This document shows, in pieces, positions 42,700-52,762 of a stretch of 53,335 bases of DNA. The notes below the pieces were generated by a model. The model was given only the letters and a program-made list of their open reading frames with translations, was not told the origin of the DNA and did no database searches. This stretch comes from Pirellulaceae bacterium. GTDB lineage: Bacteria; Planctomycetota; Planctomycetia; Pirellulales; Pirellulaceae. The translations under genes and the position numbers were made by a program. The stretch is from positions 1-53,335 of the forward strand of contig JAKVBZ010000030.1 in assembly GCA_022448645.1 (NCBI GenBank), in the 5' to 3' direction. Position 1 is the stretch's first letter. Each line of letters opens with the position of its first letter.

Positions 42700-44658
42700 A
42701 TGTATTTGCTCCGCGAAATCCGACGTCGGTTTAGTGCCCCGTTGGCTACGCTTGTCAACAACGACGACATCGACCCGCTTTTGGAGATGATTCTTTCCAG
42801 CCAGGACGCCAAGTTTGGTGATTACCAGGCGAACTGTGCCATGCCTTTGGGGAAACGCCTGGGGGAGTCTCCACGCGAGATTGCTCAAAGGATCATTTCA
42901 CAATTAGAAATCGATGACCTCTGCCAAACTCCTGAAGTTGCTGGTCCAGGTTTTATCAACGTTTCGTTGCATGACGATTGGATGGTGCAGCAGCTGCAGA
43001 AACTGGTGCATGATCCGGAGCTGGGTATCAGGAAGATTAGCCAGCCAAGAACTTATGTCGTGGACTTTTCGTCGCCCAACGTGGCTAAGCCGATGCATGT
43101 GGGTCACATCCGTTCTACCGTGATCGGGGATGCACTCTGTCGGACACTGCGGTTCCTCGGGCATCGGGTGATTAGTGACAATCACTTGGGCGATTGGGGT
43201 ACGCAGTTCGGCATGATCATCTATGGCTACAAGCACTTTCGAGACGAGACGGCGTATGCCGCGAAACCGATTGTCGAGCTGAGCCGACTGTATCGGCTGG
43301 TGCGTCGTTTGATGGATTTTCACGAAGGTTGTGCTGATTTGTCGGGGATCAAGCAGGAGATCGAAAAGCAGCAGGCTCTGTTGAGTCAGCAGGAAACTGC
43401 GGCAGGCGGTAAACCAAACAAACACACAAAAAAACAGCTGCGTTCTTTGCGGGACAAGCTGGACGGGTTGATCGAACGACGTGACTCGATCTTAACATTG
43501 GTTTCGGAAGTGGAGGCGGATCCCCAGATCGGCACGTTGGCTGAGGATCATGCGGACATCGCTCGGAACGTTTTAGCAGAAACTGCCAAATTGCACGAAG
43601 GGGACAACGAGAATCGTGAGCTTTGGGAGCAGTTTCTGCCCCATTGTCGAGCTGACATCCAACGCGTTTACAAACGCTTGGACATTCAGTTCGATCATGA
43701 ACTGGGTGAAAGTTTTTATCACGATCGCCTGGGCGCCGTAGTCGACAACTTTGAAGAGCGAGGCATGGCGCGTGTGAGTGACGGCGCGGTGTGCGTTTTT
43801 CTCGAAGGCTTCGACACGCCTATGATCATTCGTAAGCAAGACGGTGCATTTTTATATGCCACCACCGATTTGGCCACGATAGCGTTCCGCAGCGAAACAT
43901 GGAATCCGGATGCCATGTTGTACGTCGTGGATCATCGACAAGGTGAACACTTTGACAAGCTGTTCGAGACGGCTCGGCAGTGGGGACATGACAGCTTGGA
44001 ATTCCAGCACATTAGCTTTGGGACCGTGTTAGGTTCTGATGGTAAGCCCTTCAAGACTCGATCGGGTGATACTGTCGGGTTGGAAGGATTGTTGGACGAG
44101 GCCGAAAGCAAGGCGTTGGATGTGGTTCTACAGAACAATTTGGGGGCTGAGTTAGACGGTCAGCAGTGCCAACAAGTGGCCAAAGTGGTCGGGATGGGGG
44201 CTTTAAAGTACGCCGACCTGTCGCACAACCGGACCAGCGATTATGTGTTTAGCTATGACAAGATGTTGTCACTACGTGGCAATACGGCAACCTATTGCCA
44301 ATACGCTTACGCGAGAACCCAAAGCATTTTTGCGAGAGGGGAAGTCGATGTGGATGCACTTCGCCAATCGTCGGTGACGCTGCGTCTACACGAGTCGGCC
44401 GAACGACGCTTGGGTTTGGAGTTGTTGCGTTTTCCTGATGCGGTGGCGTCGGTGGCTGACGATTATCGGCCTAATTTGCTCACGAATTACCTTTTTGAAT
44501 TAGCGAATTGTTTCGCGACATTTTTCGAAGCTTGTCCGGTGCTCAAGGCGGGAAATGAAGAGGATCGTCAAAGTCGGTTGCTTCTCTGCGACCTGACCGG
44601 CCGTGTGCTTCGTCAAGGCTTGGCGCTATTGGGCATCGACGTCGTCGACAAGATGTGA
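42700..44658 (+). CDS. argS: Arginyl-tRNA synthetase
   Basis: Charges tRNA-Arg. 652 residues. After an N-terminal tRNA-binding domain (SPREIAQRIISQLE...) comes the class I HIGH-type motif in KPMHVGHIRSTVIGDALCR. The second motif is the variant GSDGKPFKTRSGDTV. The DALR anticodon-binding domain is at the C-terminus (YCQYAYARTQSIFARG, LTNYLFELANCFATFFEACPVL). Between ~207 and 305 lies an insertion rich in Glu, Lys and Gln (IKQEIEKQQALLSQQETAA, KKQLRSLRDKLDGLIERRDS) that looks helical and longer than usual. The ATG at 42700 was chosen; the frame is open further upstream but overlaps rsfS. A 7-bp hairpin follows the stop codon. Confidence 0.96.
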   Translation: MYLLREIRRRFSAPLATLVNNDDIDPLLEMILSSQDAKFGDYQANCAMPLGKRLGESPREIAQRIISQLEIDDLCQTPEVAGPGFINVSLHDDWMVQQLQKLVHDPELGIRKISQPRTYVVDFSSPNVAKPMHVGHIRSTVIGDALCRTLRFLGHRVISDNHLGDWGTQFGMIIYGYKHFRDETAYAAKPIVELSRLYRLVRRLMDFHEGCADLSGIKQEIEKQQALLSQQETAAGGKPNKHTKKQLRSLRDKLDGLIERRDSILTLVSEVEADPQIGTLAEDHADIARNVLAETAKLHEGDNENRELWEQFLPHCRADIQRVYKRLDIQFDHELGESFYHDRLGAVVDNFEERGMARVSDGAVCVFLEGFDTPMIIRKQDGAFLYATTDLATIAFRSETWNPDAMLYVVDHRQGEHFDKLFETARQWGHDSLEFQHISFGTVLGSDGKPFKTRSGDTVGLEGLLDEAESKALDVVLQNNLGAELDGQQCQQVAKVVGMGALKYADLSHNRTSDYVFSYDKMLSLRGNTATYCQYAYARTQSIFARGEVDVDALRQSSVTLRLHESAERRLGLELLRFPDAVASVADDYRPNLLTNYLFELANCFATFFEACPVLKAGNEEDRQSRLLLCDLTGRVLRQGLALLGIDVVDKM

Positions 44659-44686: not shown

Positions 44687-44825
44687 ATGGGGATGGTGTT
44701 ACGGCAACGTTTCACTGGCGGATGTTTGATTTTTGCGACATCGGCCAGGATGAAGCCAGCGGTCTTTTGAGGCATCCTTTCGAGATTTAACGGAGGAAAT
44801 CACAATTCCTTGATCCCTGGGTGAT

Positions 44826-44842
44826 TTGGCACACGGCTTGCT
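44826..44842 (+). promoter_or_regulatory. Sigma-54 (-24/-12) promoter
   Basis: TTGGCACACGGCTTGCT matches the consensus TGGCAC-R-N4-TTGCW at all fixed positions, with the required 10 bases between the GG and GC pairs. The predicted start is near 44853. It would be served by RpoN and an enhancer-binding ATPase, neither of which is in this window. It is read toward the hairpin at 44856 and the gene at 44946. Confidence 0.75.
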
Positions 44843-44855
44843 ATTTATCCGAGTG

Positions 44856-44916
44856 CCTACCAGTCGTTACAGAGCCTTCGTCCCCTCGGGCTCTGTCGGC
44901 TGGTGGGTATTTTTTT
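44856..44916 (+). terminator. Strong Rho-independent terminator or short hairpin RNA
   Basis: A long stem: TACCAGTCG (44858-44866) pairs with CGGCTGGTG (44897-44905, including two G-U pairs), and after a TT bulge ACAGAGCC (44869-44876) pairs perfectly with GGCTCTGT (44889-44896) around a 12-base loop. Seven Ts (44910-44916) follow. It can end transcription from argS, but it also starts only ~3 bases after the predicted sigma-54 start, so that promoter alone would give a ~64-base, mostly double-stranded RNA, or require read-through to reach the next gene. Confidence 0.8.
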
Positions 44917-44945
44917 AGGACCGTTGAAGCAGATAACACAGACCT

Positions 44946-45767
44946 ATGCAATCTGGCGAACTAGTCGAATTGGCCGCAATCTTAGCGACACACGGCGAAT
45001 CTATCGTTCGTTGTGAGGCTCGGTTGACCGAGCGCAGTTTGCAAGATTACTGGAACTCCTCTCGCTGCCGCATGGAGCGTTGGTCGCAGTGTTTGCACCG
45101 CTATACCGTGTTTACCGAGCGTCAGGTACAGCCGCTATTGCCCCACGACTCTATCTGGACTCACATACGAGCGACACTCGAGGAGATTTTTACTGCCGAG
45201 ATTATTACGCGCGTCTGGGCCGCCATTGCGGTAGCTTATGACGCTCGACGCGACTCCAGCGAGATAGAGTCGATGGCTCGCAGCATTTTGATCAGCCATG
45301 TTGAAATTCGTCACCGAGTGTTGCGATTGTTGATCGATCCAATGGCGATGCATCCGACAGAAGCAGAGTGGCTGAATCAATTGCGCAAGCGATGCGACCG
45401 TTGGACCGATTTGCTCATTGGCCGCCTGATGGTACGCCAACTGGGGGATCTGGCAGGGTTGGCGTGTGATGCAGACCGTGCCAACGATTTTGCGAAGGAC
45501 TTACGACGTGATCAAGCTGCGAATGCTGACACAACGGCTTGGCCGTTGATGTTAGATTCGTTAAGGTCGGCTTTTCAGCGTACCAAAGAAACCGTCAGTC
45601 CAAATGCGGATTTGAATTCGGCCATCGCCGTGTCTCTGTTGGCCAGTTTTCCAGCCGACATGTTTGATTCTACTGGACTGGTGGGTTCGTTATGGCAAAT
45701 CCGATTGACTCATCTGATAGATGATGTCGAGCAAATGATTGACCGAATCGCGTCTGAGGCAAACTAG
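44946..45767 (+). CDS. Helical protein of unknown function
   Basis: 273 residues with no recognised domain. It is predicted to be almost all helical, with charged amphipathic helices (SIVRCEARLTERSLQDYWNS, MRHRVLRLL-like EIRHRVLRLLIDPMAMHPTE, WLNQLRKRCDRWTDLLIGRL). There is no signal peptide, membrane helix, metal site or nucleotide motif, so it is probably cytoplasmic. It is preceded by a sigma-54-type promoter and a hairpin/T-run in its leader, so its expression may depend on read-through. No SD is evident before the ATG at 44946. Its stop codon shares the palindrome CTAG with the stop of the convergent lysC, so the coding regions overlap by four bases. Confidence 0.7.
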   Translation: MQSGELVELAAILATHGESIVRCEARLTERSLQDYWNSSRCRMERWSQCLHRYTVFTERQVQPLLPHDSIWTHIRATLEEIFTAEIITRVWAAIAVAYDARRDSSEIESMARSILISHVEIRHRVLRLLIDPMAMHPTEAEWLNQLRKRCDRWTDLLIGRLMVRQLGDLAGLACDADRANDFAKDLRRDQAANADTTAWPLMLDSLRSAFQRTKETVSPNADLNSAIAVSLLASFPADMFDSTGLVGSLWQIRLTHLIDDVEQMIDRIASEAN

Positions 45768-52745: not shown

Positions 52746-52762
52746 TTGGCACGGCGCTTGCA
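52746..52762 (+). promoter_or_regulatory. Sigma-54 (-24/-12) promoter of groEL
   Basis: TTGGCACGGCGCTTGCA matches the consensus TGGCAC-R-N4-TTGCW at all fixed positions, with 10 bases between GG and GC. The predicted start is ~52773, 137 bases before the GTG. Just upstream is CTGGGTG, which also precedes the other sigma-54 site of this window (44826). Confidence 0.75.

Follow-up and report, generated by a model that had tools for sequence, protein, structure and literature searches.

A predicted sigma-54-controlled hairpin RNA with a nearly invariant C-rich loop, usually linked to an uncharacterised protein gene, in Pirellulales-type planctomycetes

Qrr is a sigma-54-dependent small RNA. CrcZ, CrcX, CrcY and GlmY are likewise described as small RNAs whose RpoN promoters are controlled by an enhancer-binding protein (PMC8657755, PMC7073468). 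A second relevant group is defined by a sequence motif rather than by its promoter: LhrC, and also RsaE, RNAIII, SprD and FsrA, are described as UCCC-motif small RNAs whose UCCC loops contact G-rich sites near start codons (PMC4132741). The CcsR (“cuckoo”) RNAs are reported to share a promoter with the gene of a small DUF1127 protein, CcaF1, whose product acts on them (PMC10253847). Among planctomycetes, small regulatory RNAs are hardly documented in the literature searched, and a search on planctomycete small RNAs and sigma-54 gave, judged by titles, no paper on such an RNA. For Planctomycetia, PMC12316311 predicts sigma-54 promoters ahead of genes that include those of chaperones and proteases; its main text contains neither “small rna” nor “hairpin”. 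RpoN control with TGGCAC and CTGCTT boxes is described for a PEP-CTERM gene of Aquincola (PMC9850573).

The stretch of DNA analysed here (hereafter the window) comprises 53,335 nt from a Pirellulaceae bacterium. It contains the following features, all on the forward strand:

44827–44842, forward strand: sigma-54 type -24/-12 promoter TGGCACACGGCTTGCT, an exact match to TGGCAC-N5-TTGCT
44853–44910, forward strand: hairpin with a long interrupted stem from the predicted +1, identified by folding, covariation and covariance model R1
44877–44888, forward strand: C-rich apical loop UUCGUCCCCUCG with the nearly invariant core GUCCCCUC, from an alignment of 57 copies
44910–44916, forward strand: run of seven T, the tail of an intrinsic terminator, read from the sequence
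44946–45767, forward strand: ORF273, an uncharacterised protein of 273 aa encoded by a conserved downstream gene, with homologues in relatives

This arrangement resembles CrcZ, CrcX, CrcY and GlmY in placing an RpoN-type promoter, here predicted from sequence, before a structured RNA. It differs from them in its planctomycete host, in consisting of a single short hairpin without an Rfam match, and in being closely followed, as a rule, by a protein gene that belongs to the same unit. As with the LhrC-type RNAs, the loop is C-rich and contains UCCC; however, the hosts of LhrC are low-GC Gram-positive bacteria and LhrC has several UCCC sites, whereas the planctomycete element has one loop. The hairpin shares its promoter with a protein gene as the CcsR RNAs do, although there the protein gene comes first and the promoters are of the RpoH type, while in the planctomycete unit the hairpin precedes the gene, the promoter is of the sigma-54 type and ORF273 has no known domain. 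The Rhodopirellula-1 motif (Weinberg 2010), the one planctomycete candidate in the literature searched, is given in PMC2864571 as a candidate structured RNA of Proteobacteria and Planctomycetes, ambiguous as an RNA, probably cis-regulatory and without an Rfam number, and no tested function stands in the text of that source; compared by its published table row alone, it may or may not be the same element.

An earlier note on this DNA had pointed to a perfect -24/-12 element with a start near 44853, and this holds: the match is exact and, with the C at 44841 taken as -12, the predicted +1 is 44853. Matches without mismatch number two in the window, compared with a mean of 0.09 in 100 dinucleotide shuffles, one of which reached two. 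Since matches with up to two mismatches are no more frequent than chance (35 in the window against 32.0), only an exact match is telling. The second exact element, TGGCACGGCGCTTGCA at 52747–52762, lies about 150 nt 5′ of a chaperonin gene (start 52910, Pfam Cpn60_TCP1), a position that fits the sigma-54 control of chaperones predicted for Planctomycetia (PMC12316311).

Homologues of ORF273 extend this picture. With the GG and GC of the motif obligatory, at least nine of the ten fixed promoter letters occur in 83 of 133 unique homologue upstreams (duplicates removed by the last 100 nt), against none on the reverse strand and one after base shuffling; at least eight letters occur in 120, against 10 and 8, respectively. 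By these counts the promoter characterises the family whether the hairpin is present or not. It stands ahead of 54 of the 57 aligned hairpin copies with a score of at least 8 out of 10; two more score 7, and in L073 the start of the contig is too near for a judgement. The distance from the -12 GC to the aligned hairpin block has a median of 24.5 nt (range 10–99, 54 copies).

The hairpin might instead be nothing but the terminator of argS, preceded by a chance promoter match, a reading that the earlier note reserved for a hairpin kept in close relatives that had lost the promoter. The relatives compared, which are distant kin of the window (the best ORF273 among the 397 genomes searched is 45% identical; the nearest proteins, P0002–P0004, at 66–73%, come from other contigs), show the reverse, the promoter being more widely conserved than the hairpin. 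The hairpin does lie 3′ of argS, which ends at 44658, and has a T-run; yet about 195 nt separate it from the argS stop, and promoter and hairpin recur together before ORF273. When six window genes were compared with all loci, many of which have flanks of only about 1.5 kb, ORF273 alone recurred, save for an argS fragment in L080. With argS not a recurring neighbour and the promoter conserved, we reject this reading as very improbable. Comparison of sequences thus confirms the promoter and hairpin as real elements, and their conservation in relatives is stronger evidence for this than the window statistics.

The segment 44853–44918 folds as one long stem from its first base (MFE -37.1 kcal/mol, z -7.50, none of 200 shuffles as good). 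The hairpin and seven-T run of the earlier note are thereby upheld, with the correction that the stem begins at +1 and not three bases later. Model R1 scores the window copy at 50.7 bits, this copy being part of its training set. A looser hairpin survey, whose 83 rows included many duplicates and chance matches, served only to supply candidates. The 57-copy alignment omits near-duplicates such as L039, L233 and L234 as well as the variant loops of L012 and L022, and retains L015, which has a changed loop. Two-sided changes, already present at 9 of 13 stem pairs in the first 25 copies, affect 10 of 13 in all 57, with 88.5% of cells paired, so that the covariation the earlier note proposed to look for in relatives is found. 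The covariation score is 0.512, compared with 0.203 (sd 0.015) for shuffled and at most 0.229 for slid alignments; relatedness inflates such scores, and the slid controls share that inflation. The bare count of two-sided changes is less striking, being reached by 29 of 500 shuffles and exceeded, at 11, by two slid versions.

On this changing stem the loop is remarkably constant. Eight of its columns have identities of 0.95–1.00 and the two preceding columns 0.84 and 0.46; the outer stem reaches 0.61 and the flanks 0.42. UCCCCUC is present in the loop of 56 of the 57 copies (the exception is L015), and L128 and L145 carry it on a quite different stem. That the loop stays constant while the stem changes freely suggests that it is the loop which is recognised. 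A plain terminator or a 5′ hairpin that stabilises the mRNA, with no sequence-specific partner, would agree with the strong stem at the mRNA 5′ end, with the T7 run of the window and with the runs of at least five T (hereafter T5) near 10 of the 54 gene-linked copies. An invariant loop is not required for such a role, however, yet the loop columns hold while the stems covary, and L128 and L145 keep UCCCCUC on their different stem; we consider this explanation quite unlikely. The judgement of the hairpin as a conserved structured-RNA element of Pirellulales-type planctomycetes is one of comparative sequence analysis.

Rfam 15 returned one tRNA elsewhere in the window and no match to the hairpin; for 44700–45000 the best score was 14.9 bits against a cut-off of 69, and five whole element-bearing loci gave only a group II intron, away from the element. 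GAGGGG, the complement of the loop, occurs downstream of none of 53 copies, compared with 5.2 expected from base shuffles, and no conserved cis partner is seen. An avoidance of GAGGGG downstream was considered and dropped, as hairpin-free homologues are about as low.

The T-run distinguishes the copies. At least five consecutive T within 30 nt follow 10 of the 54 gene-linked hairpins, compared with all three of the stand-alone copies described below, and a control stretch 60–90 nt further on has T5 in 0 of 54. A GC-rich stem followed directly by a T-run, the mark of an intrinsic terminator, is therefore present in the window and not family-wide, and because 44 of 54 lack T5, intrinsic termination by itself would not free a short RNA at most gene-linked copies. 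A generic terminator scan of the window did not list the 44853–44910 hairpin, probably because it takes loops of 3–8 nt only. A classical attenuator with a competing antiterminator is unlikely in the window, where a stem that opens at the predicted +1 leaves no room for a 5′ leader. Of the alternatives in the earlier note, a small RNA or an attenuator or leader of the mRNA at 44946, a putative sigma-54 unit for a short structured RNA and/or a leader is supported and the classical attenuator is not; the stand-alone units in three genomes favour the small RNA.

ORF273 starts 29 nt 3′ of the T-run, and its start is supported by an M1 that is invariant in a 27-row alignment. At E ≤ 0.001 there are 52 matching proteins, including one with 99% identity and three that bear planctomycete names. 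The protein is predicted to be all-helical (AlphaFold2 pLDDT 87, pTM 0.84) and its family has many conserved Arg and Trp residues; neither Pfam (DUF1127 included, E up to 0.1) nor NCBIfam gives a match. No locus emerged when genomes were scanned with ORF273 alone, whereas an alignment-based scan found 45. Upstream of these stands a -24/-12 element, in many cases with a hairpin of the same loop, though the proteins are 31–45% identical to that of the window. Profile searches found ORF273 in 116 of 196 genomes of the order and in 178 of 397 of the class. One assembly, G007, has two ORF273 paralogues (L030, L034), each with its own promoter and hairpin. At L030 a group II intron match (RF01999, 6777–6861) begins about 45 nt past the ORF273 match and runs off the contig end.

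Not every ORF273 gene has the hairpin: 75 of 130 labelled rows of the protein tree are hairpin-free, a label based on a motif search plus reading of the loci, with L192, L193 and L198 among a few misjudged starts. The tree holds 132 of 135 proteins, three being too short, and has many weak forks; with gain and loss counted together, the hairpin label needs 21 changes on it, compared with a shuffled mean of about 42, and at least 10 of these are forced by starred branches.

Model R1 found the element in 31 of 196 genomes of a first draw and at 45 places in 44 of 396 genomes of a second, many repeated from the first. A renewed search of five genomes, with up to 150 candidates in each, yielded a single match per genome, and L054 (28.1 bits) was discarded as chance. 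A second model, R2, gave five matches in 392 genomes of the phylum, four of them already known, with 13 candidates scored per genome, so that absence outside the order is weakly tested; G624 (30.1 bits with R2) was rejected, TCCCCT being on neither strand of its locus.

ORF273 lies downstream on the same strand, within about 200 nt, at 42 of the 45 places. At the other three (in G116, G207 and G226) promoter, hairpin and T-run stand alone. The profile that detected ORF273 in 116 of 196 genomes gave no match at E 0.01 or better in these three, which included no positive control and may be incomplete assemblies. In L238 (G207) and L239 (G226) the gene beyond the T-run is convergent; it belongs to an ABC transporter in the former and carries the Pfam adhesive domain pAdhesive_15 in the latter. 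The neighbours of L112 (G116) are an ORF that has no Pfam match and, on the same strand, padR; related versions of both are found near L239. As two of the three share the flanking ORF and PadR gene, the stand-alone units are perhaps two independent cases. Between L112 and L239 the hairpin and T-run are identical at 46 of 50 positions, compared with identities of 0.48 in the left flank and 0.34 in the right; the -24 box and dyad region likewise stand out by eye. About 60 nt or less 3′ of the L112 hairpin there is a second perfect inverted repeat, CCCCTCCCTATTATAGGGAGGGG. A gene for a stand-alone small RNA should have its own promoter and terminator and no dependent frame, and the sequences of L112, L238 and L239 fit this description; the window unit, unlike these copies, runs on into ORF273.

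These copies make an RNA working without ORF273 the more likely reading. A cis-acting leader, in which the hairpin would be the 5′ end of the ORF273 mRNA and its binding partner, a protein such as perhaps ORF273 or another factor, would control translation, stability or read-through, nevertheless keeps about a third of our belief, because 42 of 45 matches are linked to the gene and T5 follows only 10 of 54 gene-linked copies. The matches lie directly 5′ of ORF273 with no other recurring neighbour among the window genes, the element precedes both paralogues of G007, and the conserved Arg and Trp of ORF273 would be compatible with RNA binding. Such a leader is harder to reconcile with three units that lack a detectable ORF273 and with the majority of labelled ORF273 genes, which lack the hairpin.

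Upstream of the promoter the family has a further element. A first count found GTTGC/GCAAC dyads (at least 9 of 10 letters, spacer 3–8) in 94 of 132 upstreams, compared with 12 of 132 shuffled, and 108 matches with a spacer of exactly 6, compared with 1 in the shuffled set; in a recount, GTTGC-N6-GCAAC occurs in 89 of 132 family upstreams and in 36 of 2640 shuffled regions. Among 98 dyads 5′ of a promoter scoring at least 8, 74 end 85–125 nt before it, in 66 of 132 upstreams, and the median distance of all such dyads is 111. The upstreams of L133, L135 and L137 have two copies, 18 nt apart. The spacer-6 dyads of the stand-alone units score 9/10 in L112 and L238 and 8/10 in L239. In L112 and L239 the distance from dyad to promoter is about 142 nt, more than is usual in the family. 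The window has no dyad of at least 8/10 at the family spacing, and near-matches over its whole length, 5 compared with 2.4 expected (7 of 100 shuffles had as many), do not exceed chance.

The exact dyad plus promoter occurs at 72 places in 55 of 196 genomes, compared with 8 for a reversed-pattern control. Nine of 30 such loci that were read lead into ORF273. By eye, some of the remaining loci lead into ORFs that resemble chain-length determinants, FemAB or RpoD, and into one acyl-carrier-like ORF; as the four that were scanned gave NCBIfam matches below curated cut-offs, these names are leads. The dyads are probably activator sites of a sigma-54 regulon in the family, which may include exopolysaccharide-like and RpoD-like genes.

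The promoter, the hairpin, its covariation, the constancy of the loop, the linkage to ORF273, the stand-alone copies and the family dyad are computed observations. The explanation that we favour, with about even confidence, is a sigma-54-controlled small RNA that would act through its loop, ORF273 being made by read-through. RNA polymerase with sigma-54 would be switched on by an enhancer-binding protein at the upstream dyad, and transcription would start at the foot of the hairpin, whose loop GUCCCCUC is nearly invariant. In copies with a T-run, such as that of the window, frequent stopping at the run would release a small RNA of about 64 nt, and read-through past the T-run would give the ORF273 mRNA. 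The small RNA would then act in trans via its loop, pairing with G-rich mRNA sites like the UCCC-motif small RNAs or binding a protein. Transcription, termination, release, the trans mode, the activator and any target are steps that we infer. A wider and unlikely version is a riboregulatory module in which one sigma-54 unit would provide both a C-loop small RNA, pairing with G-rich sites in the mRNAs of a regulon for exopolysaccharide and stress functions, and a dedicated helical partner, ORF273; the RNA could persist alone where the partner is absent.

With RpoN as its predicted switch, the loop as its predicted active site and stand-alone copies occurring in nature, the element allows cis and trans models to be separated by ordinary tests. 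ORF273, a widespread planctomycete protein without a known domain, emerges as a frequent predicted sigma-54 target. A short hairpin RNA linked to sigma-54 suggests a regulatory RNA in many planctomycetes.
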